Positions 18,485 through 53,087 of a stretch of DNA of 64,000 nucleotides are shown here, piece after piece. The notes below the pieces were generated by a model. The model was not told where the DNA came from, did not search any database, and saw nothing but the letters and a program-made list of their open reading frames with translations. The translations under genes and the position numbers were made by a program. How positions within the stretch are numbered: position 1 is the first letter of the stretch; every line of letters begins with the position of its first letter. Source of the DNA: Planococcus sp. 107-1 (GTDB taxonomy: Bacteria > Bacillota > Bacilli > Bacillales_A > Planococcaceae); NCBI RefSeq assembly GCF_021513255.1, contig NZ_CP090977.1, forward strand, positions 620,001-684,000. Direction: 5' to 3'.

Positions 18485-19454
18485 CGTTCCACTCCTTTAT
18501 GTCCGATTCGTGATGGAAGCTGTCCATGACTTCTGCCACGAAATAAGCCGCCAGTTTCACCGTCTTTTCCTGGATATCGAGATCCGGATTCACTTCCGAA
18601 ATATCAAAGCTCAAGAGCTTTTGTTTGGAGGCCACATGCCGCAGTAATTGGCGTACGACGAGCGGGTCCAAGCCGAACGGCGAAGGGGCACTGACGCCAG
18701 GGGCAGCAGATGCCGCAAGCGAATCGGTGCACAAAGTCAGAAGTAAATAATCGTACTGGCTGCTGAAAGCATCGATGATTGCAGTCATTTCCGGTAGATT
18801 GTGAAGCGTTAGAATCTCGGCAAGTATGTAGGCGCAATTCAGTTCATCCGCTTTCTTGAACAAGGCCTTCGTATTGCCGAACGGCTGGATGCCGAGTACG
18901 AGATAGCCGGCATTGGCGTCGCTTTCAAGAATTTGCCGGAACATCGTGCCGGACGACGGCTGTTCCGATTCCCGCATATCAAAATGCGCATCGATATTGA
19001 TCAGGCCGAGTTTTGCATCCGGTCCGATAAATTCCCGCACGCCGAGGTAATGGCCGTAAAGCGTTTCGTGGCCACCCCCTAAAATGATCGGGGTCAAGGA
19101 TTTAGTCAATAAAACATTCACGTGGCTGCCGAGTTCCGCTTGTGCTTGTTCCAAGTTTTCCCCTTCACAGATAACGTTTCCGACATCAACAGTTGGAACC
19201 GAACATTGGATGTTGTACGGAATCGGCGCCAAGGCTTTGCGAATCGCATCCGGCGCTTTTTTTGCACCGAGACGGCCTTTGTTTCTACGGACGCCTTCTT
19301 CCGATTCAAAGCCGATCAGCGAAAAGCCGCTTTCTTTATCAGCCAATTCATCGACGCTTGAATGCTTGACGACTTGGTGGAAACGAAAGGTCGCAGGATC
19401 TGTTTCGCTGTCGACGCGGCCCGTCCATAAAGCTTTATTTGGTAGTGTATACAT
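18468..19454 (-). CDS. hutG: Formimidoylglutamase
   Basis: A 328-residue ureohydrolase that hydrolyses N-formimidoyl-glutamate to glutamate and formamide, the last step of histidine breakdown. The dimanganese ligands are in GGGHETLYGH, IDAHFDMR and TLCTDSLAA. The segment AAPGVSAPSPFGLDP is characteristic of HutG rather than of arginase or agmatinase. No other hut genes lie in the window. It is the first gene of hutG-gltS and is divergent from a LysR regulator, which probably controls it. Confidence 0.88.
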   Translation of the reverse strand: MYTLPNKALWTGRVDSETDPATFRFHQVVKHSSVDELADKESGFSLIGFESEEGVRRNKGRLGAKKAPDAIRKALAPIPYNIQCSVPTVDVGNVICEGENLEQAQAELGSHVNVLLTKSLTPIILGGGHETLYGHYLGVREFIGPDAKLGLINIDAHFDMRESEQPSSGTMFRQILESDANAGYLVLGIQPFGNTKALFKKADELNCAYILAEILTLHNLPEMTAIIDAFSSQYDYLLLTLCTDSLAASAAPGVSAPSPFGLDPLVVRQLLRHVASKQKLLSFDISEVNPDLDIQEKTVKLAAYFVAEVMDSFHHESDIKEWNDDSRT

Positions 19455-19555
19455 GCGAGCACCTCAAATTCCTTTATTAGTTTTTTCAGAACTATATGTA
19501 TTTTTATTGTAAAAGAGTTATTCTATTATTACTAATACCAAAAATTGATGATTCC

Positions 19556-19570
19556 ATAGTTTGAAACTAT
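19556..19570. promoter_or_regulatory. 15-bp perfect palindrome, candidate LysR operator
   Basis: ATAGTTTGAAACTAT (seven-base arms around one G) lies between the divergent hutG and LysR genes, just before the ribosome site of the latter. It matches the T-N11-A form of LysR boxes. A further partial copy (AACTATATG) occurs near 19490. Autoregulation and control of hutG-gltS are inferred. Confidence 0.5.
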
Positions 19571-19586
19571 AAAGGAGAGCGCTTAC

Positions 19587-20489
19587 ATGAATATGACTCA
19601 TTTGAAATACTATATTACGCTTGTTGAACAAGCATCATTCACAAAAGCGGCGAATGAACTGCTTATCGCGCAGCCGTCCCTCAGCATGGCGATTAAAAAG
19701 CTCGAAACTGAACTCGAATTAAAGCTGCTCGACCGCAGCAAACGCGATCTCTCATTAACGAAAGAAGGGGAGATCCTCTACGAAGAAGCGAAGAAATTGA
19801 TGAACCACGTGAACTACGTCGAAGGTGAAATGAAGCGGCTGAAAGACCAAGGGCCGATGGAACTCGCCATCGGCATCATCGAATCCGCCAAGTTCTGGAT
19901 CCCTAAAATCCTGAAAGCCATCAAAGACGAATACCCGGGCGTCCGCATCGAAATCGTCGAAGTGCTCGGGCTCGACGATGTCCATAAAGCCTTGAACAAT
20001 TACGACATCCATTTCGCCATCACAAACCAGCTCGTGTCGAAGCAAGAAGTCAATGTCCTTCCTATATATAAGGAAAACTTTGTCGCACTGCTTCCGGCCG
20101 GCCATCCGCTCACCAAGAAAGCGCAGCTCGACGTCACCGACCTGATCAGCGAATCGTTCATCATCTTCAAAGAAGGCTTCCAAACCCGCCAAGACATCCT
20201 GAACGCATTCCGCCAAGCCGGCAGCAAGCCGAACATCCAGTTCGAAGTCGAACGCTTCGAGACCGCCATCAGTTTTGTCGAAGAAGGGCTAGGTGTCACA
20301 CTCGTGCCGGAGAATTACATGAAATCGTTTCAGAACAACCAGTGTGAAGTACGGGAACTGAACGATCACAACGTCACGCGCACCGTTTTCCTCGCGCACG
20401 ATACGAGAAGGTATTTGCCGCCACTGGTGAATCGGTCGATTGAGTTGATTCGGGGTTTTTTTGAGGAGAGGGAAGATAATAAAGAATGA
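19587..20489 (+). CDS. LysR-family transcriptional regulator
   Basis: A 300-residue LysR protein. The N-terminal winged helix is clear (EQASFTKAANELLIAQPSLS, residues about 14-33), followed by a linker helix and a periplasmic-binding-like effector domain from about residue 92. Start at 19587 after AAAGGAGAG. It is divergent from hutG-gltS and followed by a terminator, so it is monocistronic. From context its effector may be a histidine or glutamate pathway compound; this is inference. Confidence 0.9.
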   Translation: MNMTHLKYYITLVEQASFTKAANELLIAQPSLSMAIKKLETELELKLLDRSKRDLSLTKEGEILYEEAKKLMNHVNYVEGEMKRLKDQGPMELAIGIIESAKFWIPKILKAIKDEYPGVRIEIVEVLGLDDVHKALNNYDIHFAITNQLVSKQEVNVLPIYKENFVALLPAGHPLTKKAQLDVTDLISESFIIFKEGFQTRQDILNAFRQAGSKPNIQFEVERFETAISFVEEGLGVTLVPENYMKSFQNNQCEVRELNDHNVTRTVFLAHDTRRYLPPLVNRSIELIRGFFEEREDNKE

Positions 20490-20542: not shown

Positions 20543-20908
20543 TTAAAGAATCGCTTCCGCAATCATTTTATCCAGCTTCCGGATATCCACTTTCTTCGCC
20601 AAATTCAATTTGAACTTGCCAAGCGTCGTCCAAAGCTCGAGCTCCGTATTGAAATCGAAGGTTCCGGCATTCTCCGACGAATACATGATGATCGACTTGA
20701 ATGGAATTGTATAGACTTCCACTTTTTTGCCCGTCAATCCTTGCTTGTCCGAAATGATGAATCGCTTATTTGTCACGACCGCTGTATCACGGACCGTTTT
20801 ATAGGCGAGCTGCGCTACTTCTCCAGGAACCAGCAAATCCTTCACCGAATCCGGTACATCAATTTCTTGCGTGAACGTCCACGCTAACATTGCATTTAGA
20901 GCTGACAT
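20543..20908 (-). CDS. PH-domain-like protein (bPH type)
   Basis: A 121-residue cytoplasmic protein with a bacterial pleckstrin-homology fold pattern: KTVRDTAVVTNKRFIISDKQ, then the strand-rich KKVEVYTIPFKSIIMYSSEN and a C-terminal helix (DIRKLDKMIAEAIL). Homologues of this size are common in Bacilli with unknown role. It starts at 20908 after AAAGGAGGAAC. It stands alone. Confidence 0.75.
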   Translation of the reverse strand: MSALNAMLAWTFTQEIDVPDSVKDLLVPGEVAQLAYKTVRDTAVVTNKRFIISDKQGLTGKKVEVYTIPFKSIIMYSSENAGTFDFNTELELWTTLGKFKLNLAKKVDIRKLDKMIAEAIL

Positions 20909-21191
20909 AAATATGTTCCTCCTTTATCTTTCTATTTTTATTATGACGCAAATTGGATTGGTAAAGAAGTCCATGATTAGTTCTACATATAGTTAATTCA
21001 AGTTGAGGGATTGAAGATTCGTAAGAACACAGGAAAAAGTAAAAATGTTGAAATGAAATGTAATAATAGTAATAATATGTTGCGCGTAGTATAATTGTCA
21101 TAAATAAGATAGGATTTTGATATTGTTAATTGGAATGGAAATTGATTTCTATACTACTTAATAAACAACATAAGTTAGGAGGAGAGATAAC

Positions 21192-21851
21192 ATGAATAAA
21201 AAATGGTTTGCTCCAGTTATTATTGGCTCTATGCTTCTTGCAGGATGTGGTTCTGAAACAACGGATGTTAGCGAAGAATCTGAAAGTACGCCGAGCACTG
21301 AAAATCAAGAAGAAACGTCAGAAGAAACAGAGGTTGTTGAAGAAGTTGAGGAACCTGCTGAAGGTGAAGAAGACATTCAAGAAGATGACAGCCTGAAAGC
21401 AACTAACACATATACCAACAAAGAATTAGGCATCACTGGAGAAGTTGGTCCGATGAAGTATGAAATCCCAGGAATTCAACTAAAAATTATGGAGCCGAAA
21501 GATCAAGCGACTGCAGATTTATTTGAAGTAGAAATTGGAGAAGAAGTCCATGTTTTTACAATTCAATTTGCTGGCGAGAATACTTCAGATGAAGATATGA
21601 GTTTTTATCTGGGACAAGCTATGGCAATTACTAATACAAAAGAACAACTAGAGCCGGATATGCTCCTATCTGAACATATCGAAGGTGAGTACATGGGTCA
21701 AGTACGGCATGAAGGGTACAATGTTTATATCTTGAAAAATTCTACTGTAGATCAATTGGAAAGCATTGAACTAAGAATTACTGCTCCAACTGATAGTAAT
21801 TTTGAAACTGTTGGAGAAGATGTATCTCACACAATTGAAGTTAATAACTAA
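21192..21851 (+). CDS. Putative lipoprotein with acidic linker and C-terminal beta domain
   Basis: A 219-residue protein with a lipobox signal (GSMLLAGC, Cys19), then a very acidic low-complexity stretch (residues about 24-68, rich in Glu), then a domain of about 150 residues. That domain resembles the DUF4352/immunoprotective-type extracellular modules of Bacilli, but I am not sure. The start follows GGAGGAGAG. The AT-rich 283-base region before it should hold the promoter. It is the last core-like gene before the AT-rich island. Confidence 0.75.
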   Translation: MNKKWFAPVIIGSMLLAGCGSETTDVSEESESTPSTENQEETSEETEVVEEVEEPAEGEEDIQEDDSLKATNTYTNKELGITGEVGPMKYEIPGIQLKIMEPKDQATADLFEVEIGEEVHVFTIQFAGENTSDEDMSFYLGQAMAITNTKEQLEPDMLLSEHIEGEYMGQVRHEGYNVYILKNSTVDQLESIELRITAPTDSNFETVGEDVSHTIEVNN

Positions 21852-22082
21852 AAAATAATGGCTTAAAAGTTTTAGAGGTTAATGAAAGCAAGAGTTTAAA
21901 TAGGGTGCGCTACCTTGACAGGGTAGAGGTGTTTCAATAGCCAATTTAAAGAGAAAAAAGAATCTGCAAAGGTTCTTTTTTTTGCGTTAAATTAATTATG
22001 TCTTCAATTAAAGTAAGAGTATATCCTATATATGTGGTAAAATTATCTAAATGCATTGCGGAAATTTGAAAGGGGCATTTCC

Positions 22083-22755
22083 ATGGTTTATCAATCCCGG
22101 ACACAGTCCGAAGCACAGCTGGAGAACGAGATGATTGAGCAGCTTGTTCAATTGGGGTATGCAAAAGTCTCGATTCCTTCCATCAAAAACTTACAAGAAA
22201 ATTTCCGGATCCAAATGGATCGATTAAACAAAGAAACCTGAACGGCACACCTTTGTCCGATAAAGAATTTGCGCGCCTCCTTTTGAAAATCGAAGGGAAA
22301 AGCGTTTATGAATCGGCGAAGCTGCTTCGTGAAAGTGGCAAACTCATTGGCAATATCAGCAATAATGACCAAAAAAGCATAAAAAATAGGTTCGATAAAG
22401 ATGCAGTTCTATTTGGTAAACTACGTCCATATTTAAAAAAGTAATGGTATGCAAGTTTTGAGGGCCTATGTTCGACGGAGATATGGGTTTTAAACTCAAA
22501 GGACATGGATGTATATATTTCTTTATACAAGGAGCAGAGCTCTTAGAAGTAGCAAACAAATCTATTGGGTCAAAAATGCCTCGAGCTGATTGGAATTCAG
22601 TTTCAGAATTCCCATTTAAAATTCCGACAATAAAAGAACAGGAAAAAATAGTAGGCTATCTGAAAACCTTAGAAAATAAAATCGTTAAAGAAAAAGAGAA
22701 ATTGATGTTTTTCGAGGAGCAGAAGAGAGGGTTTATGCAGAAGATGTTTGTATAA
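22083..22755 (+). pseudogene. Relic of a type I restriction locus: hsdR head joined to hsdS tail
   Basis: The first part, from ATG 22083, is the N-terminus of an HsdR restriction subunit (QLENEMIEQLVQLGYAKVSI). It breaks off and resumes one frame over in NLNGTPLSDKEFARLLLKIE, again HsdR-like. Within that same frame the sequence changes to HsdS-type specificity-subunit sequence (AVLFGKLRPYLKK, then a stop, then WYASFEGLCSTEIWVLNS). A further shift leads to the HsdS C-terminus (GSKMPRADWN, IPTIKEQEKIVGYLKTLENK) ending at 22755. The middle of hsdR, all of hsdM and most of hsdS are gone. Several shifts and stops in 670 bases show true decay, not a sequencing slip. It marks the left part of a defence island. 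Confidence 0.8.
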
Positions 22756-22917
22756 ACTTTATTAATATAATTAATTAAAATTTATAATGTATTATGGTAT
22801 ATGATTAAAAACTAAAATTTTTATTCGGTTTTGTATGTAATGTAAAAGGGACCGCTCCTTAGAGCTGTTGTTAGTTATTAAGAAAAAAGAAATATTTAAG
22901 AGAGGAGGAGGCTTTTA

Positions 22918-24153
22918 GTGTCCTTTCAAGAAAAGACAAGCGCAGATAATAAATCTATAGGTTTTGACTACCAATATTATTATTTTCTTTATTTACTGTT
23001 AAATCTTAAACAAGGGGAAAGTATCGGTATAGAAGTGAAAGATGATGTACATCTAGATTTAAGGGATGGTAAACAAGTACTTCTTCAGCTAAAGCATTCG
23101 ATACAAAAAAACTCAGCAGGAGAAATAAAAAATTTAACAGAATTAGATGGGGATGTTTGGAAAACCATTAGTAATTGGGTGAATATTGTAAATGATGCTG
23201 AAGAAGGTAGGACAACTTTAAAAAAACAACTAGACTATATTAAAATTACAAATTTTATTTTAGTATCGAACAAATCAAGTAGCGAAACCAATAATTTTTT
23301 AATAAGCATAAAGAAATTGAAAAATGGTGAAATTACTATAGAGAGCTTGCTAGATGATTTAGAGATCTTGTTTAATAAGTCAAAGGATATTGAGATAAAA
23401 GGCTGGATAGGTGAATTGAAAAAACAAAATAAAAAATGGATAAATCTATTTATACAACATTTAGATTTTGATTTGAATCAAGATGATTTAATAAGTAAAA
23501 TACATGGCGTCATTAGGGAGAAACTAGTAAAAGAAAACAGGATTAAAAATGTGTTCGAGAGTTTAGATAGCAATATAAGAATGAATAACTATATTACTGT
23601 CAAGAAGAAAGAAAAGATTATTATTACATTTGAAGAATTTAGAAAAAGTGCAGAAATTTATTTTGAGAAAGCACGCGCTAGTAAGTTACCTATAAGAAAA
23701 AAAACTACTAAATTTTCTAAAGACTATTTCAATCAAACTTTCATTAAACAGTTGATAGATATTGAAGTTCTTGAAAAAGAGGATATAGAAGAATTATTAA
23801 GGTTAACCGGTTATAAAATGCAAGCGTATACAAATTTAGAAGCGTGGGAACAGGAAGGAGAGATTACGACTTTACAGAGAAAGCAGTTTGAAGATCAATG
23901 TATTCTTCAATGGAAAAATGCTTTTAACTCCACTCATACTCGCATAAGAAAAAAATGGGCAACGGATAAAGAGTCTATAAGCGAAGATGACATAATAGAG
24001 TATGCTCAAAAATGCTATTTCAAAGTTATAGATAGAATTCTAGAATTAGAGGAAACAAGGTTTGACATGGAATTTAGTAATGGGCAATTTTATTTATTAT
24101 CTGATACACCTATGATAGGTTGGAAAATTGATTGGAAGGAGAAATACAGTTGA
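22918..24153 (+). CDS. ABC-three-component (ABC-3C) system nuclease/C-terminal-domain protein
   Basis: A 411-residue protein starting with GTG at 22918 after AGGAGGAGG. The N-terminus has the pattern of Cap4/DUF4297-type nucleases of the restriction-endonuclease fold: GFDYQ (residues 15-19), IEVKDDV (Glu39, Asp42/43) and the QLK core motif (residues 57-59). The C-terminal ~140 residues end in NGQFYLLSDTPMIGWKIDW, like the C-terminal domain of ABC-3C effectors, which tethers them to the partner proteins. It is the first of three tightly packed genes, followed after one base by the middle component. AT-rich composition unlike flanking genes points to transfer. I infer a DNA-cutting effector in phage or plasmid defence. 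Confidence 0.75.
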   Translation: MSFQEKTSADNKSIGFDYQYYYFLYLLLNLKQGESIGIEVKDDVHLDLRDGKQVLLQLKHSIQKNSAGEIKNLTELDGDVWKTISNWVNIVNDAEEGRTTLKKQLDYIKITNFILVSNKSSSETNNFLISIKKLKNGEITIESLLDDLEILFNKSKDIEIKGWIGELKKQNKKWINLFIQHLDFDLNQDDLISKIHGVIREKLVKENRIKNVFESLDSNIRMNNYITVKKKEKIIITFEEFRKSAEIYFEKARASKLPIRKKTTKFSKDYFNQTFIKQLIDIEVLEKEDIEELLRLTGYKMQAYTNLEAWEQEGEITTLQRKQFEDQCILQWKNAFNSTHTRIRKKWATDKESISEDDIIEYAQKCYFKVIDRILELEETRFDMEFSNGQFYLLSDTPMIGWKIDWKEKYS

Positions 24154-24154
24154 T

Positions 24155-24613
24155 ATGGATATTTCTAGGCAACTATATAACAATGAATTAATTGCGTCTA
24201 TAGCCATCAGTTCTGTATTAAAACATCTTGAAAAAGCTACTATAGCACAATGCGTACTAATTCTACCAATAATTTCTCATAGAAATACTCTTAGCTTTTT
24301 AAAAAGAAAGTCAACTATTATAAGAAGTATGGAAGAATTTGTGTTAAAAAAACCAGGATGTTTCATTAATTTTCATGAAAGATATTTATCTTTGCTGCCA
24401 GTTTCTATTAATGCAATAACAATTCTAAAAGAACTTAAGGTGATATCTATAGAAAAAGGCGAAATACGGTACTTAAAAAATAATAATTTCGATATAGATA
24501 ATAAACTTTTGGGAAAAAGAGCAGAAGACATTGTAAAAGGATCAGAGAAGCTGGCATTACTGTTGAATGACAATATAGCAAATTTATATTTGCAATTAAG
24601 GGTGAAATTATGA
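24155..24613 (+). CDS. ABC-3C system middle component
   Basis: A 152-residue protein, start chosen at ATG 24155 (MDISRQLYNNELIASIAISS), preceded by GGAAGGAG inside the upstream gene. It is alpha-helical with a winged-helix look (ALEK-type helices, then VSINAITILKELKVISIEKG, about residues 83-102). Size and position match the middle-component family that links effector and ATPase in ABC-three-component systems. The stop overlaps the ATPase start by ATGA. Recognition rests on context plus general similarity. Confidence 0.7.
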   Translation: MDISRQLYNNELIASIAISSVLKHLEKATIAQCVLILPIISHRNTLSFLKRKSTIIRSMEEFVLKKPGCFINFHERYLSLLPVSINAITILKELKVISIEKGEIRYLKNNNFDIDNKLLGKRAEDIVKGSEKLALLLNDNIANLYLQLRVKL

Positions 24614-26475
24614 AGTTTGTGATTAATAAAATTCTTCTATGGTTAGAGAATGGTACTTGCCGTACTGTGAAATTTGAAAAAAACAAGGTAAATGTTATAA
24701 CCGGAGACAGCGGAACGGGAAAGTCAGCTATTTTAGATATTATTGATTACTGTTTTTTCTCCAGTACTACTGAAATTCCGGACGAAGTGATTAACGAAAA
24801 TGTTATGTGGTATGGAATTAACTTTGATATTAATGATAAAAATTTCACTATTGCTAGAAGTCGATTTCATACAATAAAGAAACTTTCTAAAGAATACTTT
24901 TTTTCTGGACTCGGAGTTATACCTGAATTACCCTATCCTAATATTAGCGAAAAAGAATGTAAATTAACTATCGAAAAGGAATTTTCAATCGATAAAAATG
25001 TTGTTATACCATATAGTGGTAATAATTTAAGAGCTGGAAGTAAGATATCTTTGAGATACTTTTTTATGTTTAATACCCAGTCAGAAGACATAATCACTAA
25101 TAAACAAGTTTTTTTTGACAAGCAAAATGATGAAAAGTATAGAGAGGCTTTGGAAAGGATTTTCGATATTGCTACAGGGATTGAAACTGTGGAAAATATC
25201 TTGATTCTAGAAAAAATTAAAGACACAGAAAAAGAAATTAATAGAATTGAAAAAAAGAAAACACTTTTAGAAAATCAATCTTCTCTTTATGAGGAAAATC
25301 AAGCTGATTTGATAAAGAAAGCAAGAGAGTATGGCTTGATTTCTGGAGATATAATCGATTTTAAAACAGAGTTAAAAAAACTAAAGGAAGTAGTTTTAAA
25401 TTACAAAGAAGAAAGTATGGTTACAGAACCGGATAATATATTAGCATTAAGGAATGAAAAGAATGATATTTTAAGAAAAATGAGAGCATATAAAAAATTT
25501 AAAAAGCAATATGAAGAATACAGAAAAGTTGAAGGTAATAACTATGAAAGCTTAAAACCGGTCATGTATATAAAGGAGAACTTTTACGAAGTTATAGAAG
25601 TACCAGAAATTAAAGGATTACTATTAGATTTTGAACAGGAACTACTTGATATTAAAAACACCCTAGACAAAAAACATCCTATAAATTTAGATATAGACAG
25701 TGAAATATCCAAACTAGAAGAAAAACTAGTACCTATAAATACAATGCTTAATCTAGTTCCTGAAGAGGAAAACACATTTTCGAATAAAATAGACAAGTAT
25801 ATATTTATCGGAGAGCTCAGACACCAACTATCATTTTTTGATAGGGAAATAGTTTTCGATGGAAATTATGAAGAGCAAATTCTAGATAAACAAGAAGAAC
25901 TTGAAGAGTTATTATCGTTGTTAGATGACAATTCAAATAAAGAAACCATAATAAAATTATTGGAAGAGTTAATAGATGGATACTTAGATCAGTCAAAGGA
26001 TGCACTTGGCACCTATGCAGGTTACAAAGCATTATTTGATTATAAGAAAAAACAATTAAAGTTAAGAAAGCCAGGAACAGCTAACCCTTCTACAGTAGGA
26101 AGTAGTTCAAATCATATGTTTTTGCATCTCTGTCTTTTCTTAGCTTTACATGAATTAATAATAAAACAAAAAAGTCCTTACGTGCCGCCATTCTTGATAT
26201 TAGATCAACCAAGCAGACCATATTATGGAGAAGATTCTGGAGGCATGAGTCAAAAACAATGGGAAGAAGTAAATACGGGAGATAAAAAGAAAATTAACAT
26301 TGCCATGAAAGTCATGAATGATTTTGTTGAATATGTAAATACTGAACTTAAAAGGGATTTTCAAATTATCATTCTCGAGCATATCCCGAAATCGATATGG
26401 GAAGATGCAAAATTAAATTCCTTCCATCTTGTTGAAGAATTTAAAGAAGGTGAGAATGCTTTGATAAACATCTGA
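24610..26475 (+). CDS. ABC-3C system ATPase, DUF3732 family
   Basis: A 621-residue SMC/RecN-like ABC ATPase. Walker A is GDSGTGKSA (residues 32-40), closely followed by ILDIIDYCF. A long charged coiled-coil region covers about residues 190-445. The C-terminal lobe holds an SSNHMFLHLCLF signature-like helix and a Walker B FLILDQPSRPYYGE (about 528-541). The DQPS with Gln where many ABC ATPases have Glu is a feature of the DUF3732 group, so it is not a loss. It overlaps the middle-component gene by four bases and ends the operon. In such systems the ATPase is thought to sense an invader and license the nuclease. Confidence 0.8.
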   Translation: MKFVINKILLWLENGTCRTVKFEKNKVNVITGDSGTGKSAILDIIDYCFFSSTTEIPDEVINENVMWYGINFDINDKNFTIARSRFHTIKKLSKEYFFSGLGVIPELPYPNISEKECKLTIEKEFSIDKNVVIPYSGNNLRAGSKISLRYFFMFNTQSEDIITNKQVFFDKQNDEKYREALERIFDIATGIETVENILILEKIKDTEKEINRIEKKKTLLENQSSLYEENQADLIKKAREYGLISGDIIDFKTELKKLKEVVLNYKEESMVTEPDNILALRNEKNDILRKMRAYKKFKKQYEEYRKVEGNNYESLKPVMYIKENFYEVIEVPEIKGLLLDFEQELLDIKNTLDKKHPINLDIDSEISKLEEKLVPINTMLNLVPEEENTFSNKIDKYIFIGELRHQLSFFDREIVFDGNYEEQILDKQEELEELLSLLDDNSNKETIIKLLEELIDGYLDQSKDALGTYAGYKALFDYKKKQLKLRKPGTANPSTVGSSSNHMFLHLCLFLALHELIIKQKSPYVPPFLILDQPSRPYYGEDSGGMSQKQWEEVNTGDKKKINIAMKVMNDFVEYVNTELKRDFQIIILEHIPKSIWEDAKLNSFHLVEEFKEGENALINI

Positions 26476-26865
26476 AGCTCAATTCCGTCTCCCTGTGTAA
26501 AAAATAATTCTAAACGATTTTTAAAAATTTATAAATCGCTTCCTAGGGAAAGAAACAATTCTGAACGATTCTGACAATACATGACAATTTATATTATAAA
26601 CATTGGGTAATCTATTAAATAACATTTCTAGCTGTTGCTCTAGCATTTTATTCTGGCTTATAAATTGTTTCTGAATTGTGCCGTTCTAAGGGAAACGAAT
26701 TTAATGATGAAACACATATAGTCAGAAAACGGGAAGATAGAGACTTACAGGATTTGAAAAAATTAATTGATTTAACAGTTTACTATATAGCTATGGGAAT
26801 ATTAGTAAATCAATATGAAGCTGAGATAAGCTAGAATTTACCATTTAATCAAGGAGGTAATGGGC
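26476..26865. other. Noncoding gap with decayed gene fragments
   Basis: This AT-rich gap separates the ABC-3C operon from the PIN gene. At about 26535-26580 it holds a degenerate copy of codons 10-23 of the small gene at 29321 (NRFLGKETILNDSD against the intact YRLPGKETILND). A second open stretch from about 26691 to 26834 (52 codons from a TTG at 26676) encodes DRDLQDLKKLIDLTVYYIAM and looks like the end of a lost gene. I see no ribosome site for it. The last bases hold the AAGGAGGT of the next gene. Confidence 0.5.
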
Positions 26866-28254
26866 ATGAAGGAGCAATTTAGAGGATTAATTGGATATGA
26901 TGAGGAAGAAATTAAAGATTTATGGGAAAACGCTACTTTTGTAGTGGATACTAATATTTTAATCAATTTCTATAAGTACACTTCTAAATCATCAACACAG
27001 TCGTTGTTGAGTATTTTAAAAAAACTAAAAGACAAAGATAGATTGTGGATACCGCACCAAGTTGCTTTAGAGTATTTTTTTAATTATGAAGGGAATATGT
27101 CTAAGCAACATGAAGGTTTGAAATTTCTTAATACAGAGTTGTTAAAATTAAAGGAAAGTGCTGAAAAAGTTTTAAAGCGAGTAAATAGTGACCACCCATA
27201 CATAGATACAAATAATTTTGAGTTTTATGTTAAAGAGATTGAAAAATCAAATGAAACTTTAGAAAATGCAGTGGAAAGGGAGATAAGCTTATTACCTGAC
27301 ACAAAAAAGATTAGTTCAGATTTATTGGATTTAATTTCGGGAATAATAGGTGAACCTTATGAACAACAAAGAATTAATGAGATTGAAAAAGAAGGAAAGT
27401 TAAGATATTCAAAGTTGATTCCTCCTGGCTTTGATGATTTGGGTAAAAAGGGTAAGGATGAATATAGAACGTATGGTCAGATGACTTATCAACAACATTA
27501 TGGAGATTTAATTGTTTGGAAACAGATGCTAGACATAGCGAGTAGTGCTGAATCATCTAAACCATTAATTTTTCTTACAGAGGATAGAAAAAAGGATTGG
27601 TGGGAGTTGGATAGGAATGACAATATTAAAAGACCTCATCCTCAGCTAATTCAGGAATTTACTGATAAGGTAGGGAAAAGTTTTTATATCTACAAAACTG
27701 ATAGATTTGTTGAATTAGCTAGGAAATATCTGGATGGCACTATAACTGTAGAACAAGTTCAAAATGTATCCGTTCAAGTTGAAAATATTAGAAAAGTTGA
27801 GGACCAGATTGAGAGAAGTGAGCCGATAGTAGGATTAGATTATCGCGAGTTAAAGAGGCTGTTAGGGTACTTACCAGTTTATTTAAGAAAAGAATTTGAG
27901 TATGAATTAGATATGTTAATTAAAGAGGGTTTAACTTCTAAAATTAACCTTGGTTTGCATAATAATTTGGTAAGTAAAGCAGCACAGTATGCCTTACCTC
28001 ATATTGAAAGAGATCTTACTGAAAGAACAGATAAAATTGCTCATTACAATGCTGATGTTGCTAATCATGTTACTAAAGAATACAAAAGGGCAATGTATGA
28101 TCTGAACCCTATAATTAAAGTTAGAACTTTATTTAATATGATTGATCATCTCAATGATGAATTAAACTTTTATAAAGATATGGAGGAGCAAATGAATAGA
28201 GAATGGGCAGAAGAACAAAATGCTCAAGAAAGAGATCATGATTGGTACAAGTAA
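26866..28254 (+). CDS. PIN-like domain protein, probable nuclease
   Basis: A 462-residue protein; I chose ATG 26866 (MKEQFRGLIG) because AAGGAGGT lies eight bases upstream, while the ATG at 26860 is too close. The N-terminal PIN-like domain (about residues 22-270) shows FVVDTNILINFY (Asp28), WIPHQVALEYF (Glu69) and a distal acidic cluster LTEDRKKDWW, the expected metal-binding set. The long C-terminal part (residues about 290-462) is helical and charged and resembles nothing I can name. PIN-like proteins of this size occur in defence islands; RNA cleavage is likely but unproven. It could act with the ABC-3C operon or alone. Low GC as its neighbours. Confidence 0.75.
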   Translation: MKEQFRGLIGYDEEEIKDLWENATFVVDTNILINFYKYTSKSSTQSLLSILKKLKDKDRLWIPHQVALEYFFNYEGNMSKQHEGLKFLNTELLKLKESAEKVLKRVNSDHPYIDTNNFEFYVKEIEKSNETLENAVEREISLLPDTKKISSDLLDLISGIIGEPYEQQRINEIEKEGKLRYSKLIPPGFDDLGKKGKDEYRTYGQMTYQQHYGDLIVWKQMLDIASSAESSKPLIFLTEDRKKDWWELDRNDNIKRPHPQLIQEFTDKVGKSFYIYKTDRFVELARKYLDGTITVEQVQNVSVQVENIRKVEDQIERSEPIVGLDYRELKRLLGYLPVYLRKEFEYELDMLIKEGLTSKINLGLHNNLVSKAAQYALPHIERDLTERTDKIAHYNADVANHVTKEYKRAMYDLNPIIKVRTLFNMIDHLNDELNFYKDMEEQMNREWAEEQNAQERDHDWYK

Positions 28255-28343
28255 AACCGCGTACATAGCATATTTAATGAATTCGTTCCCCTAATAAATA
28301 AATAGACAAACGGTAACACAACTAACCATGAATACTGATTACG

Positions 28344-28402
28344 GCCATGAATTTTTACCATGTCTGCCATCTTATTTACCACCGATTGCCATTTACTTTA
28401 CC
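28344..28402. repeat. Three direct repeats of ~21-22 bp, IS21-like terminal relic
   Basis: GGCCATGAATTTTTACC, TGCCATCTTATTTACC and TGCCATTTACTTTACC follow each other at 21-22-base spacing. On the other strand each reads GGTAAA...ATGGCA. Multiple short terminal repeats of this kind are typical of IS21-family ends. No transposase gene of that family is left, so this is taken as the end of a lost element. Confidence 0.5.
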
Positions 28403-28447
28403 GCGATTTGTCACACTTTGGAACCGTCAAGTAGAAATGGTTCTTAC

Positions 28448-28687
28448 GCTCTTTTGGGGAAAAGATTTGAAATCTTTCATGAAAAAACTCCTGCTATTTT
28501 AAGATAATCACCATTGATAAAGAATCCGGTTTCTTAATACTAGAAAACCGGCTCGTTTATACATCACGCGTTTGATGGTTTTTAATCGGTTCACTTGTCC
28601 TTCTACTGGTCCGTTGCTCCACGGCTCTTCGATGCTTAATTTTGCTGCACTTGGAAAATCGCGCCCCTGTCCTGAAGACAATTTAAT
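28448..28687 (-). mobile_element. Relic of an ISL3-family insertion sequence (transposase C-terminus)
   Basis: Read on the minus strand, 28687-28508 encodes the last ~59 residues of an ISL3 transposase: EEPWSNGPVEGQVNRLKTIK followed by RVMYKRAGFLVLRNRILYQW and a stop. The pattern WSNGxxEGxxNxxKxxKRxxYGRxxF is diagnostic. Beyond the stop, GCTCTTTTGGGGAAAAG at 28448-28464 resembles the ISL3 terminal inverted repeat. The upstream frame hits a stop at 28688 and no left end is seen, so most of the element is deleted. The bases 28688-28830 show nothing I can name. Confidence 0.75.
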
Positions 28688-28871
28688 TTATTCACGACAA
28701 CTGCATGCCAAAAAAGCCGAGTCCAGGAACCATAAGGGTTTTGGACTTTGGTTTCAGTATTATTATCGGAATATTAAATTATTCATAAAAGAGCCGTTCA
28801 CAGGGAGCATCTAGGACCTGCTGGAAAAATGTATAATGAAGTAAATTAGTTTGATATATGAGGTGTAATCC

Positions 28872-29324
28872 ATGGATATTATCGCAGAGTTGGCACATGA
28901 ATTTTTTTCTCAAGTTGAAGGTATGCGTGGCGTACTCAATCCTAAAACAGGTGAAGTTCTTGTCGACGCGCCAGAATCGTTTACAGGCGAACCTGGAATT
29001 GATTGGGAGGACGGATTGGCGGAAGTTTTGATGCTGGTCCCTGAGATGACTTCATCAGAAGCCCACCAGCTTAGAGAAGATTTTGCGAAACGATTAAGGG
29101 AATCGAAAGAGCGGACTAGCCTATTGCAGTCGTTAAAAAGAAATAAGCCGTTCAATCATTTCAGACTACAATTAGAATCCTTAGAAATGGAAGAGGACTG
29201 GTACAATCTTGAAGAAAAGTATGCGAAACAGCGAATCGTCGAATGGTTGAAAGAAGAAGGATTGTACTCGGAAATCGTGAGGTTTAATCAATCGCGGTTT
29301 AAAGAAAGAAATGATTCTCAATGA
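28872..29324 (+). CDS. UPF0158 family protein
   Basis: A 150-residue cytoplasmic protein, start at 28872 after GAGGTG. It has the UPF0158 layout: a strand-rich N-terminus, then helices ending in the family pattern RNKPFNHFRLQLESLEMEED...WLKEEGL. The function of the family is unknown. Its stop overlaps the next start (ATGA), so the two are coupled. GC is higher than in the ABC-3C operon. Confidence 0.75.
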   Translation: MDIIAELAHEFFSQVEGMRGVLNPKTGEVLVDAPESFTGEPGIDWEDGLAEVLMLVPEMTSSEAHQLREDFAKRLRESKERTSLLQSLKRNKPFNHFRLQLESLEMEEDWYNLEEKYAKQRIVEWLKEEGLYSEIVRFNQSRFKERNDSQ

Positions 29325-29572
29325 TTTTAACCAGCACTACAATTTTTGGGTATCGCCTCCCAGGGAAAGAAACAATTCTAAACGATATTGACTATGAACT
29401 ACAATTGCATATAAAAGATACTCTATCCTTTGAAGATATGATTCCGAGGGATAGAGTTTTATTATTTGTGCAGAAATTGGAGTTGTCAGGAGATGAGCCG
29501 CTCCTAGAGAGGCGTTTACAAGAATTTAGTAAACTCATGAAAAAAGAAAGATTATTATTTATTTTCAAATAA
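29321..29572 (+). CDS. Small hypothetical protein
   Basis: An 83-residue protein that overlaps the UPF0158 gene by four bases. It has no signal peptide or membrane segment; the C-terminal half is helical and charged (PLLERRLQEFSKLMKKERLL). I do not recognise a family. A decayed fragment of a similar gene lies at about 26535-26580, so this type of gene existed at least twice in the island. Confidence 0.65.
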   Translation: MILTSTTIFGYRLPGKETILNDIDYELQLHIKDTLSFEDMIPRDRVLLFVQKLELSGDEPLLERRLQEFSKLMKKERLLFIFK

Positions 29573-29713
29573 TTATGATAACATTGTGATTAAATGGGTT
29601 TCATACTTTTAATGATGATATAGGATGTCTTAACCAATTTTTGATACTGAGTTTTAAGGGCTGCACTTTAATAGATATTCAGTTATACATATTAGAGAAA
29701 GGGAGGAAAAACA

Positions 29714-31000
29714 ATGACGAAGGTTTCGTGGTCAAGGTTTTTATTCTTTTCAATGCTGATCTTTATATTGTCTTTGGCAGCATGTGGCAATGATGAAACT
29801 TCAACCGAAGAATCAACGGATGACTCGAATGCTGCAACAGAACAAAGCGCAGATGGAGAATCTGCAGAAACTGAACCGAAAGTTACTGAGTTTGAACCGG
29901 CATTTCCAGAACAAACAAGAGCACCTGCAGTAGTGACTGAAACAGAATATGATGTGGAAGTTATTGCTGAGGGTCTTGGCGTGTCTTGGGGGATGGAAGA
30001 GTTTGAACCAAACCGCTTGCTTGTTACGCAAAGAGATTCAGCAGAGCTTCTTATTGTAAACCTTAATGAGTTCGCTGTTTCAGAACCAATTGAAGGAACG
30101 CCAGAAGTAAATAGCGAAGGTCAGGGCGGTTTGCTTGATGTGGCTATTGCACCTGATTTTGACGAATCAAGATTGGTATTTCTGACGTTTTCTCAAGATG
30201 TCGAAGGGGGTACTTTAACGGCTCTCGGTAAAGGTGTTTTATCAGAAGATGAAGCCTCCCTTGAAGATTTCGAAGTCATCTTCCAAGCAGAACCAGCATA
30301 TGATGGTGATTTGCACTATGGTGGACGTATTATCTTTGATGAAGAAGGCAACCTGTTCTTAACAACTGGTGAACGTTCAGATGATCCGATTCGCGAACGT
30401 GCACAAGACTTGGATGCTTACTTAGGTAAAGTCATTCACATTACACAAGACGGTGAAGCAGTGGATACGAATCCATTTATCGAAGATGAAGACGCACTGG
30501 ATGGCATTTACAGCTATGGTCACCGTAATATTCAAGGTGTGGACTTCCACCCTGAAACAGGAGACTTATGGATTGTCGAATTCGGTCCACAAGCCGGGGA
30601 TGAATTGAATATTGTTGAACCAGGCAATAATTATGGATGGCCGATTGTTTCTTATGGGATCGAGTATACCGGTGAATTGATCAATGATGGGATTTCAGAA
30701 CACGAGGCGCAAGGCTTTATTGAACCAAGATATTATTGGGATCCAACAAGTGCGCCAAGTGGTAGTTCATTTTATGATAACGACGCAATTCCTGAATGGG
30801 AGAACAACTTGTTCATCGGTGGTTTAGTGTCGAGCTATATTGCACGTGTCGTTATTGAAGATGACACCATCGTTGGAGAAGAACGTCTATTAACCGACGA
30901 AGGCGAACGTTTCCGCGATATTCTTGTAACGGAGGATGGCGCGCTCATTGCAGCTACTGACGGCGGTAAGATTTATAAGATTTCTGCAGCAGGTGAATAA
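29714..31000 (+). CDS. PQQ-dependent aldose sugar dehydrogenase-like lipoprotein
   Basis: A 428-residue exported protein with a lipobox (ILSLAAC, Cys24) and an acidic linker to about residue 75. The rest is a six-bladed propeller of the soluble glucose dehydrogenase/YliI family: GQGGLLDVAIAPDF, YGGRIIFDEEGNLFLTTGER, YSYGHRNIQGVDFHPETGDL and EFGPQAGDELNIVEPGNNYG are family landmarks, the last containing calcium/PQQ-site residues. It would oxidise sugars outside the membrane if PQQ is available; no PQQ synthesis genes are in the window. The start follows AAGGGAGG. It is monocistronic, ended by a terminator at 31057. Confidence 0.85.
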   Translation: MTKVSWSRFLFFSMLIFILSLAACGNDETSTEESTDDSNAATEQSADGESAETEPKVTEFEPAFPEQTRAPAVVTETEYDVEVIAEGLGVSWGMEEFEPNRLLVTQRDSAELLIVNLNEFAVSEPIEGTPEVNSEGQGGLLDVAIAPDFDESRLVFLTFSQDVEGGTLTALGKGVLSEDEASLEDFEVIFQAEPAYDGDLHYGGRIIFDEEGNLFLTTGERSDDPIRERAQDLDAYLGKVIHITQDGEAVDTNPFIEDEDALDGIYSYGHRNIQGVDFHPETGDLWIVEFGPQAGDELNIVEPGNNYGWPIVSYGIEYTGELINDGISEHEAQGFIEPRYYWDPTSAPSGSSFYDNDAIPEWENNLFIGGLVSSYIARVVIEDDTIVGEERLLTDEGERFRDILVTEDGALIAATDGGKIYKISAAGE

Positions 31001-31314
31001 AAAACGCACCCCTGTATCAAAAAGGATTCAGTGTACTAACTAGAAATATATGAAGAAATAGCCGTATCTGCTAACCGCAATGGTTAATGGATACGGCTTT
31101 CGATTTTTATCAGCATCATTAGTTGTTCATGAATGTTTCGACACAGTGACGATCTGAAAATAGCTGGAAATGTAATCTTCCGGTTGTGCTTTGGAGATCA
31201 CCTTCGTAAACACTTCCATAGTAAACATTCTGCAGCCCGGCTTTTGCAGTCGGGTTTTTTAGTAGCTATTTTTATTGATTATCGGCATGATGAAAGAAAA
31301 AGGGAGGCTGGAGC
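31001..31314. other. Noncoding region with two terminator hairpins
   Basis: The first hairpin, AGCCGTATC / GATACGGCT (about 31058-31098) followed by TTTCGATTTTT, ends the sugar dehydrogenase gene. The second, CCCGGC...GTCGGG followed by six T, lies near 31239-31261. Between them the minus strand has a short open stretch (about 30 codons, EVFTKVISKAQPEDYISSYF) without a ribosome site, possibly a gene remnant. The end holds AAAGGGAGG of the next gene. Confidence 0.55.
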
Positions 31315-34094: not shown

Positions 34095-34718
34095 GTGGCT
34101 GCAAATGAAGTTTCCATAGGTAAGATAGAAAAAATGTTGGATTGGGCATATGAGAAATCATTAGATGGGATTCCAGGGACGGACTCAGCTTATGAAATGG
34201 CCGAGAATTTTTTATCGAAACATGATACTGCTGATCAAGCTATCGACAGCTTAATTCGGTGGCAAAATACAAAAGCAGCCACTAGTGGCTTTCTTACGGG
34301 GTTAGGCGGGATAATTGTTCTGCCTGTTACATTACCCGCAAATATTGCTTCTGTAATGTATGTACAAGTTCGAATGATTGCAGCTATTGCACATATGAAA
34401 GGCTATGACTTAAAAGACGATCAAGTTAAAACTTTCGTTTTTGTATGTCTAACAGGAAAATCAGCTTCGGATATATTAAAAAAGACGGGCATCCAAGCAG
34501 GAAATGCCTTCGCTAAACAAGCCGTCCTGAGAATACCTGGTGAAGTCATTAAAGCAATAAATAAAAAAGTCGGTTTCAGACTGGTAACTAGGTTCGGGCA
34601 AAAAGGTGTAGTGAATTTAGGTAAAGCAATACCTATAGCTGGGGGAATTATCGGGGGGACAGTCGACGGAATAGGAACGGGGATAATTGGAAAGACAGCC
34701 AAGAAAGTGTTTGTCTGA
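34095..34718 (+). CDS. EcsC-family protein
   Basis: A 207-residue protein starting with GTG at 34095 (AGGAGG upstream). The pattern AATSGFLTGLGGIIVLPVTL followed by PANIASVMYVQVRMIAAIAH is typical of EcsC-like proteins, which carry a hydrophobic hairpin and a helical domain and sit at the membrane. A glycine-rich hydrophobic C-terminus follows (IPIAGGIIGGTVDGIGTG). Function of the family is unclear. It stands alone, low in GC. Confidence 0.8.
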   Translation: MAANEVSIGKIEKMLDWAYEKSLDGIPGTDSAYEMAENFLSKHDTADQAIDSLIRWQNTKAATSGFLTGLGGIIVLPVTLPANIASVMYVQVRMIAAIAHMKGYDLKDDQVKTFVFVCLTGKSASDILKKTGIQAGNAFAKQAVLRIPGEVIKAINKKVGFRLVTRFGQKGVVNLGKAIPIAGGIIGGTVDGIGTGIIGKTAKKVFV

Positions 34719-39010: not shown

Positions 39011-39700
39011 TTACTTTTCTTTTAGAACGCCTGCCGCAACCAAATTCTTTAAAGCACCTTTATTTTTGAACCGGAAGTATCCGCTTAACCTGTTTAAGTC
39101 TTTTTGTGTCACTGCAGATAAATCTGTAGCCAGCTCGTATTCGTTTTCAAGCTTTGTAAGCAATGTCTTCGCGAATTCTACTTGTTTTGGCGTTAATAGT
39201 TTATCTTCTTTATTTTCAACGTCTTCTCTCCTTACTGGATTTTTCTTTTCTTCAGCAGGGAAGATGGTTTGGTTAATTTCATCTGTATACTTTCCAGCTC
39301 TTATCCATGTCAGGTCTTCCTTGTTTAATGCAAACCATTCTCCTTCAAGTCTCTTGTCAGAAAAGTGTTTATGGAAAGCAACTTCTGTCTGATGATGGTT
39401 GCCAGTTTTAATGAGGAAAATAAGTTTGTTTTCGAAAGGCAATTTCACACCGAAGATATTCATTCTTTTTTCTAGATTTTTTGTCTTGCCAATTTTGAAA
39501 GAGCCGTTCATGTATTCTTGTACAAAGTAAATATAGCCGGGTGCTTTGCCTTGGAGGTCAGGCGAATCAATGATTTGTTCAAGTTCATAGCGATTTGATT
39601 CAAAAAGATAAATCTTTTGTGGCTGGATTCCAGGGGGAGTAACGAGTTGTTCAGGGGCAGTTTTAGAAGAGAAAAGTTTATTGAAAATGTTTTTTACCAT
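39011..39700 (-). CDS. GIY-YIG nuclease-like protein, T5orf172 type
   Basis: A 229-residue protein. Residues about 52-135 match the T5orf172/Mug113 variant of the GIY-YIG fold: GYIYFVQEYMNGSFKIGKTK (the two YxG-type strands and the Lys/Arg helix), KRMNIFGVKLPFENKLIFLI, and HKHFSDKRLEGEWFAL with the catalytic-type Glu. The C-terminal ~80 residues are charged and may bind DNA or the neighbour protein. Such domains cut or nick DNA in phages and mobile elements. No phage genes flank it here. It probably forms an operon with the 38357 gene. Confidence 0.75.
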   Translation of the reverse strand: MVKNIFNKLFSSKTAPEQLVTPPGIQPQKIYLFESNRYELEQIIDSPDLQGKAPGYIYFVQEYMNGSFKIGKTKNLEKRMNIFGVKLPFENKLIFLIKTGNHHQTEVAFHKHFSDKRLEGEWFALNKEDLTWIRAGKYTDEINQTIFPAEEKKNPVRREDVENKEDKLLTPKQVEFAKTLLTKLENEYELATDLSAVTQKDLNRLSGYFRFKNKGALKNLVAAGVLKEK

Positions 39701-52146: not shown

Positions 52147-52295
52147 ATTGCAAGGAATTTTATTGTTTAAAAATGGAAATTAAAGCTTTTATAAATTATC
52201 ATTTATGGTACTATTTACATAATGATTTAAAGTAGTTAAAAAGGTTCATTTGAAAAAGTTATACATTCTGTTTTATGTTGAAAGAAGTGATATGG

Positions 52296-53087
52296 ATGAT
52301 CAGTGAAATCAAAGGGAAAATTTCAAGCACGGGGAGCAACTTAAGTGATCGGCTCGAAGATAAACTAACCGGTGACTTTTTTGGCGCACTCCGTTATTTG
52401 CCTTTTGAGCAGGGACTTAAAGGGATATTAGAAGAAGTAGAATTTACGAATGCAGTTGAAAACGAAGAGTGGGTTCAATTTCTTAATAGACAGTCGGGGT
52501 TTGATTTGAATTATCGATTTTGGCCGCGTCATTCAAAAGGAGAAATTGATTTGCTTTTGGAGTTTGAAGATACCTTAGTAGGAATTGAAGTGAAATATCG
52601 GAGTGGGATTTCTTCGGAGGATAGCGGCGAGATTGTCAGCTACGACCAGAGTCTCCATCAACTTTCAAAATACTCGCATATGATGGAAAGCTTGGCGAAT
52701 ACGAAAAGAACGTACTTAATATTCCTAGCGCCATTTCCAATACAAAATCTTGTTCAACAGGGAATTGGAATTGACTTTAATATAGCTTCTTCTGTGCCAA
52801 TGGGATTTATTAATTGGGAAGATATCCATACGAAGTTAGTGAAGATGGAAAGCGCCACTTTAGAAGGCACACCGAAATATATCTTTTCAGATGTAAGAGA
52901 ATTACTAGAAGTAAAAGGGTTAAAAAGATTTAATGGATTTGAAAATCTTTTAGAAGAAGTTACCATTCACTATTCCCCGTATAAATATGAAGGGTTGAAA
53001 ACAATTTCAAAATCATCATGGGCTTGGCCAGATTATCAATTTGAAGAGGAGAATAATGCATATGTCTATCACACAAACAAAGGGTGA
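52296..53087 (+). CDS. PD-(D/E)XK nuclease-like protein
   Basis: A 263-residue protein; start chosen at ATG 52296 (MISEIKGKISSTGSNLSD) with AAGAAGTGA upstream. The core motif of restriction-endonuclease folds is plain: GEIDLLLEF (Glu83, Asp85) and VGIEVKYRSG (Glu98, Lys100), with a preceding helix FLNRQSGFDLNYRFWPRHSK. The C-terminal ~110 residues are of unknown type. It overlaps the next gene by 26 bases, so they are coupled. It may be a defence or repair nuclease. No methylase is present, which argues against classical restriction. Confidence 0.75.
   Translation: MISEIKGKISSTGSNLSDRLEDKLTGDFFGALRYLPFEQGLKGILEEVEFTNAVENEEWVQFLNRQSGFDLNYRFWPRHSKGEIDLLLEFEDTLVGIEVKYRSGISSEDSGEIVSYDQSLHQLSKYSHMMESLANTKRTYLIFLAPFPIQNLVQQGIGIDFNIASSVPMGFINWEDIHTKLVKMESATLEGTPKYIFSDVRELLEVKGLKRFNGFENLLEEVTIHYSPYKYEGLKTISKSSWAWPDYQFEEENNAYVYHTNKG

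Follow-up and report, generated by a model that had tools for sequence, protein, structure and literature searches.

Does a three-gene operon in the chromosome of Planococcus sp. 107-1 encode an immune system and, if so, which one? The operon occupies positions 22918-26475 of a 64,000-nucleotide stretch of contig NZ_CP090977.1, which we call the window. We propose that it encodes an immune system of Lamassu type II (also known as DdmABC or LmuACB), with three genes and a Cap4 effector, and from the sequences and predicted structures of its proteins we put the probability of this at roughly 88%. The operon appears to be a further, intact-looking member of this class, and the explanation by analogy is strong. 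Judging by its sequence, it is likely to be functional as a defence system.

A three-gene operon with the layout of Lamassu type II

The three open reading frames (ORFs; Table 1) encode proteins of 411, 152 and 621 amino acids. These ORFs are real, with lengths far above chance (when the region was resampled 300 times with a first-order Markov model, the longest ORF was 74 amino acids in the median and 169 at most). The first gene, lmuA, starts with GTG, and AGGAGG lies 6 nt upstream. Its stop codon (TGA, 24151-24153) is followed by one base and then by the ATG of lmuC, in the lmuC frame. The ORF program listed a TTG at 24128 as the start of lmuC, which would give 161 amino acids; we prefer the ATG at 24155. 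The genes are complete and tightly coupled, as a preliminary description of this DNA had stated, and both the A-C-B gene order and the coupling of Lamassu type II are present. The operon region is also AT-rich, as described (29% GC versus 45% for the window). A search for repeats within three short stretches found nothing.

Table 1. Features of the window (positions are counted from its first letter)
Feature	Coordinates	Strand	Basis or remark
lmuA (ddmA-like): predicted N-terminal Cap4-like PD-(D/E)xK nuclease domain and C-terminal CTD7-like domain	22918-24153	+	PADLOC, PDB, fold
lmuC (middle component 3)	24155-24613	+	PF20131 MC3, PADLOC LmuC
ATGA overlap (lmuC stop and lmuB start)	24610-24613	+	translational coupling, read from sequence
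lmuB (ddmC-like): SMC/Rad50-like ATPase with DUF3732 C-terminus	24610-26475	+	PF12532, PADLOC, PDB, fold
PIN_8-domain protein	26860-28254	+	Pfam PIN_8 1.4e-47; phage family phrog_9788 8.6e-52, function not known
Variable island holding the operon	20934-29351		flanks in common with congener G008 (blastn)
Decayed type I restriction-modification relic	22056-22755		HsdR N-terminal-like piece (REase_I 6.8e-9), then HsdS-like pieces (8e-12, 1.2e-18)
55-nt direct repeat	26535-26589 and 29352-29406		82% identical
PADLOC candidate model PDC-S29 (EcsC-like)	34095-34718	+	8.7e-90
PADLOC candidate model PDC-S57 (T5orf172/MUG113 protein)	39011-39700	-	2.8e-10
PADLOC candidate model PDC-M15A (NERD-like)	52275-53087	+	6.3e-9

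We scanned 17 proteins of the window with Pfam and 15 with PADLOC. The PADLOC models for Lamassu match all three proteins of the operon over nearly their full length: LmuA (PDLC03848, 6.2e-38 over residues 5-408), LmuC (7.9e-10) and LmuB (PDLC03859, 2.9e-84). In Pfam, LmuC matches MC3 (PF20131, 3e-12) and LmuB matches DUF3732 (PF12532, 2.3e-38), both above the cut-offs, whereas LmuA matches CTD7 below the cut-off. CTD7 and MC3 are names for families of the ABC three-component (ABC-3C) systems.

The proteins also have the architecture of Lamassu type II. LmuA combines an N-terminal enzymatic domain with an ABC-3C C-terminal domain, and in LmuB, which is SMC/Rad50-like, a short coiled coil separates the N-terminal half of the ATPase from the C-terminal one. 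LmuC is present, which is the feature that separates type II from the two-gene type I.

A passage in PMC10586767 groups Lamassu types I and II, ABC-3C and DdmABC into a single superfamily that is active against phages and plasmids, and a passage in PMC12409362 classes three-gene clusters, including ddmABC and fitting ABC-3C, as Lamassu type II. ABC-3C (with MC3 and CTD7) is an older name for this operon type, a classification label and not a separate mechanism. The earlier interpretation as a three-component ABC-type defence operon stands, but it did not name Lamassu.

LmuA is a predicted Cap4-like nuclease

The first protein had been described as a Cap4-like nuclease, and we agree. Cap4 nucleases of the PD-(D/E)xK type have an E...D...QxK catalytic motif within an alpha-beta-beta-beta-alpha-beta core. 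LmuA has this motif (E39, D43, Q57 and K59), and its AlphaFold model has strands at 35-39, 43-47 and 53-59, a helix at 78-91 and a strand at 111-117, with moderate local confidence. The nuclease domain has no Pfam match of its own, so we make the assignment because of the motif and the fold. Among nine aligned LmuA proteins, E39, D43 and K59 are conserved in all nine and Q57 in eight; the exception, L067, has glutamate. (This alignment leaves out L059 and L061, which are cut by contig ends, L006, which is also cut, and L063 and L064, which are less closely related; L062 is on the same contig as L060.) The LmuA of L107, which we read outside the alignment, has the same nuclease residues. CTD7 was found at E ≤ 0.1 in all four of the aligned members considered, and the best of four homologues reached 8e-10.

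Cap4 is also the effector of some cyclic-oligonucleotide-based anti-phage signaling systems (CBASS), in which it carries a SAVED or CARF domain and has a CD-NTase partner. The operon does not fit CBASS, as neither a SAVED nor a CD-NTase family was found among the 7 proteins that we scanned between 22468 and 29572. LmuA has CTD7 instead.

Comparisons to known structures also point to Lamassu. By sequence, the best match of LmuA in PDB is chain 9hqu_C (4e-9 over residues 5-405); a chain of the Vibrio cholerae type matches at 7.6e-5 over residues 6-95. By fold, Foldseek ranks 1 to 10 are all LmuA chains, with the DNA-bound LmuA tetramer of Salmonella (9hr5_C, 1.5e-10) at the top, followed by Avs3 at rank 11 and Cap4 itself (6vm5) at rank 15 (5.1e-4). 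Lys59 pairs with a lysine in 9hqu_C and with an alanine in 9hqx_A and 9hr5; we read the alanine as a mutation made to inactivate the nuclease.

LmuB lacks a zinc hook

LmuB also matches solved Lamassu structures, by sequence (9hqu_A, 3.2e-32; 9ny5_D, 4.9e-31) and by fold: Foldseek ranks 1 to 6 are Lamassu chains, led by 9uxh_F (7.4e-24), and SMC and Rad50 heads are lower. The AlphaFold model (6 rows in the alignment) has a mean predicted local distance difference test (pLDDT) score of 68.7, with long helices at 194-240 and 274-313 between the two halves of the head.

The DUF3732 ATPase with a DQPS Walker B that had been described is present and conserved. Besides DQPS (Q533), LmuB has a Walker A motif (GDSGTGKS, K38), a signature-like GSSSN (497-501) and H591. 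Both Walker motifs are conserved among the aligned LmuB proteins, with DQPS in 10 of 11; the eleventh (L067) has an LmuB ORF that is truncated at 504 amino acids and ends before it. The glutamine in place of the Walker B glutamate is no peculiarity of this protein, because section 9 of the review PMC10586767 states that it is "generally" found in the LmuB of Lamassu systems. With Walker A, Walker B and the nuclease residues including Lys59 in place, the earlier statement that all motifs are intact holds.

The sole deviation of the operon from the Lamassu pattern is at the tip of the coiled coil, as a CxxC zinc hook is missing from LmuB of the window. According to a passage in PMC10586767, a CPxC hook is found in "many but not all" LmuB proteins. 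In our alignment, the window's LmuB and six others lack CxxC, are shorter by about 7 residues at the position of the hook, and have (D/E)SL there (7 of 7). Three of the remaining four have CPxC, and L006 does not, as its second cysteine is missing. In a midpoint-rooted tree of the 11 proteins (with two long branches), a branch with 100/100 support parts the hook-less clade of seven from the other four, but the clustering of the hook on this tree does not stand out from chance (88 of 500 label shuffles were as low).

Among solved structures, LmuB from Salmonella has CPMC, while cysteine is absent from the hook position in LmuB from V. cholerae (9uxl) and in the 9ny5 chain. Because a hook-less structure already exists, we do not count the loss of the hook as new; that L006 lacks the second cysteine outside of the clade, and that the hook is not universal, also weaken this idea. 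A speculative extension is that LmuB proteins of the clade, with their shorter cysteine-free (D/E)SL tip, dimerize or sense DNA via a different, metal-free apex and so respond to a different range of triggers from Lamassu systems with a hook. We consider this rather unlikely.

Comparison to known systems and a proposed mechanism

Among the closest known systems is LmuACB from Salmonella enterica (9hqu, 9hqx and 9hr5). Its LmuA aligns to ours over residues 5-405 and has the same nuclease lysine, its LmuB has the DUF3732 head, Walker A and the DQPS Walker B, and an LmuC chain is present. In contrast to these likenesses, the identity in fold alignments is just 14-17% for LmuA and 20-21% for LmuB, and the Salmonella LmuB has the zinc hook that ours lacks. 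The Lamassu type II or DdmABC system of V. cholerae (9uxl) shares the three genes, the Cap4 effector, the DUF3732 LmuB, and the absence of CxxC at the hook position, but it is distant in sequence, and it lies in VSP-II rather than in the chromosome of a member of the Bacillota. (One chain in each of 9ny5, 9nyg and 9uxh gives the same alignment as that of 9uxl.)

The titles of the matched PDB entries refer to LmuACB in a nuclease sequestration state, to LmuACB bound to DNA, and to an LmuA tetramer bound to DNA. By analogy, LmuC and LmuB (probably two copies) would hold the LmuA nuclease inactive. ATP-bound LmuB would bind an abnormal DNA structure, either an end or a hairpin, such as phage or plasmid replication might produce; a passage in PMC12904381 lists hairpin and DNA-end sensing for Lamassu. 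As the Walker B glutamate of LmuB is replaced by glutamine, ATP hydrolysis is probably slow or absent. The binding of DNA would free LmuA to form a tetramer, as suggested by the PDB titles and by the addendum to PMC12409362, in which LmuA is liberated upon activation and forms a homotetramer with an active Cap4 nuclease. The tetramer would then cut DNA with E39, D43, Q57 and K59, and the infected cell would be harmed or cured.

Related operons are sporadic

LmuB has a match in 2 of 200 genomes, namely the window's own and one more, in which the match has 29% identity; the other 20 listed congeners have none. This sporadic distribution is as expected of immune cargo. In a sample of 398 genomes from the phylum, DUF3732 was found in 5 and the LmuA model PDLC03848 in 21 (both counts include the window's own genome), and several of the 21 matches span the nuclease part only. 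The LmuB model PDLC03859 is useless for such a tally: 397 of the 398 genomes match it, and so do all 14 controls, as it catches other SMC/Rad50-like proteins. Among 72,556 plasmid records, 76 have a match to LmuB, all below 60% identity, and 3 of these cover at least 80% of the query.

The closest relatives that we found are in Jeotgalibacillus salarius (L002) and in a metagenome-assembled genome from the Bacillota (L003), with 50-52% identity for LmuB (3 loci in the search of genome contigs). A plasmid of Comamonas endophytica (L107) has an LmuB that is 39% identical. These cassettes have the same gene order and no hook, and they differ from ours in their downstream genes, with no PIN_8 found within the stretches examined. 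In all, LmuB has a match in 10 of 13 related loci, and all ten have the order effector-side ORF, middle ORF (148-185 amino acids), LmuB. The effector-side ORF matches our LmuA in 8 of the 10 and the middle ORF matches our LmuC in 4. Of the two non-matching effector-side ORFs, L068 is LmuA according to PADLOC, and L006 is cut off by the end of the locus. The annotation of two plasmid loci shows this gene order as well.

Two related loci have features of their own. In a Methylomonas plasmid (NZ_CP014361.1; L106:3501-6713), an IS5 transposase gene lies within lmuB and divides it into pieces, over which the identity is 42%. In the metagenome-assembled genome, the Lamassu cassette is followed after 0.4 kb by a putative caspase-like peptidase gene (from our reading of the sequence; L003:6373-7830).

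None of 50,697 phage records matched LmuA at E ≤ 1e-5, and carriage of this operon by phages finds no support here. In IMG/VR, relatives of LmuB are on two contigs and relatives of LmuA are on four, two of which are the same contigs. It is possible that viral contigs carry members of the wider Lamassu family.

The operon lies at a variable site

The preliminary description placed the operon in a defence island. It does lie in a variable island of 8.4 kb, but this contains just one intact known system, along with a PIN-domain gene and a restriction-modification (R-M) relic. The other contents are a lipoprotein-like gene (our reading) and a UPF0158 protein (2.8e-7). The pieces of the relic are separated by stops and frame changes.

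The window matches the congener G008 on both sides of the island (blastn), with 94% identity over 18658-20477, 91% over 20545-20933 and 89% over 29352-31181. The first two blocks are separated in G008 by 16.7 kb of additional sequence, whose genes we read as mainly transporter- and peptidase-like. Between the last two, in place of the island, G008 has about 18 kb of different genes. These include DISARM-like genes (L029:5884-15936) that match DrmA (3e-111), DrmB (2e-31), DrmC (4e-13) and a methyltransferase (9e-108), as well as a match to dGTPase (2e-73); 3 of the 8 scanned proteins are unmatched. As the two genomes have such different contents at one site, this site exchanges genes, and defence genes are included. 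Beside the DISARM-like genes is a protein of 896 amino acids that has no PADLOC match.

The second copy of a 55-nt direct repeat begins exactly where the similarity to G008 resumes (29352). A third short match to the repeat lies at another place in the genome, and sequences resembling 26517-26707 are found in three loci from congeners (L030, L034 and L035). It is possible that the repeat is an exchange junction. Elsewhere in the window, three PADLOC candidate models have matches in or near other AT-rich patches (Table 1).

Alternative explanations

Several results weigh against the assignment to Lamassu type II. The CTD7 match of LmuA (E = 5.5e-5, 23.8 bits) is under the 27.6-bit cut-off. LmuA is a remote relative of the solved LmuA proteins (best E = 4e-9), and its AlphaFold model (4 rows) has a mean pLDDT of 54.8, with low confidence outside of about residues 60-190. 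LmuC has no significant similarity to the solved LmuC chain 9hqu_D (E = 0.85). None of the three proteins is above the cut-off for any NCBIfam model. Finally, promoter-like sites are at the level of shuffled sequence (27 found and 24.1 expected), which is uninformative, and the scan gave no terminator-like site.

The lack of promoter or terminator signal above shuffles, and the decayed R-M relic next door, would also fit a silent or inactive copy, in which the frames are open but the operon is mere island cargo that is not expressed or lacks a host factor. Unlike the relic, though, the operon has all three long frames open and the motifs that we checked are intact, so we think that this is unlikely. 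The operon might also be a distinct, non-Lamassu ABC three-component system with a housekeeping role in DNA repair. LmuB is Rad50-like, and Foldseek finds Rad50 and SMC heads as well, but these are below the Lamassu chains, which come first in every comparison to PDB by sequence or by fold. Housekeeping is also hard to reconcile with so sporadic a gene, whose only other match in the 200 genomes is distant. We consider this explanation extremely unlikely.

Another question is whether the operon is part of a four-gene defence unit, with the ribonuclease-like PIN_8 gene as a second effector. The match to PIN_8 is strong, and the gene is on the same strand, 384 nt downstream of lmuB, in the same AT-rich island. 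However, this gap contains a copy of the repeat, the genes after lmuB vary among L002, L003, L004 and L107, and phmmer found a homologue of the PIN_8 protein in none of the 13 related loci. (Nine of the ten loci with an LmuB match include 1.6 kb or more of sequence after lmuB; L006 includes just 0.47 kb, so it says little.) We rejected PIN_8 as a fourth component, which seems very unlikely to us, although it may be a separate defence gene. We return to the three-gene Lamassu type II system as the best account of the operon.

Implications

The preliminary description had stated that there was little experimental work on systems of this kind. Once the operon is placed within Lamassu, this is out of date: tests with phages or plasmids are reported in passages of PMC10586767, PMC12409362 and PMC8565338 (in the last of these, a Lamassu type II system lowers plaquing in E. 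coli), and structures have been solved. So the operon should not be described as an unstudied system. Its remaining use would be as an intact example from the Bacillota whose sequence differs by about 80% or more from those of the solved complexes, with a hook-less LmuB tip and a chromosomal site that is occupied by DISARM-like genes in a congener.

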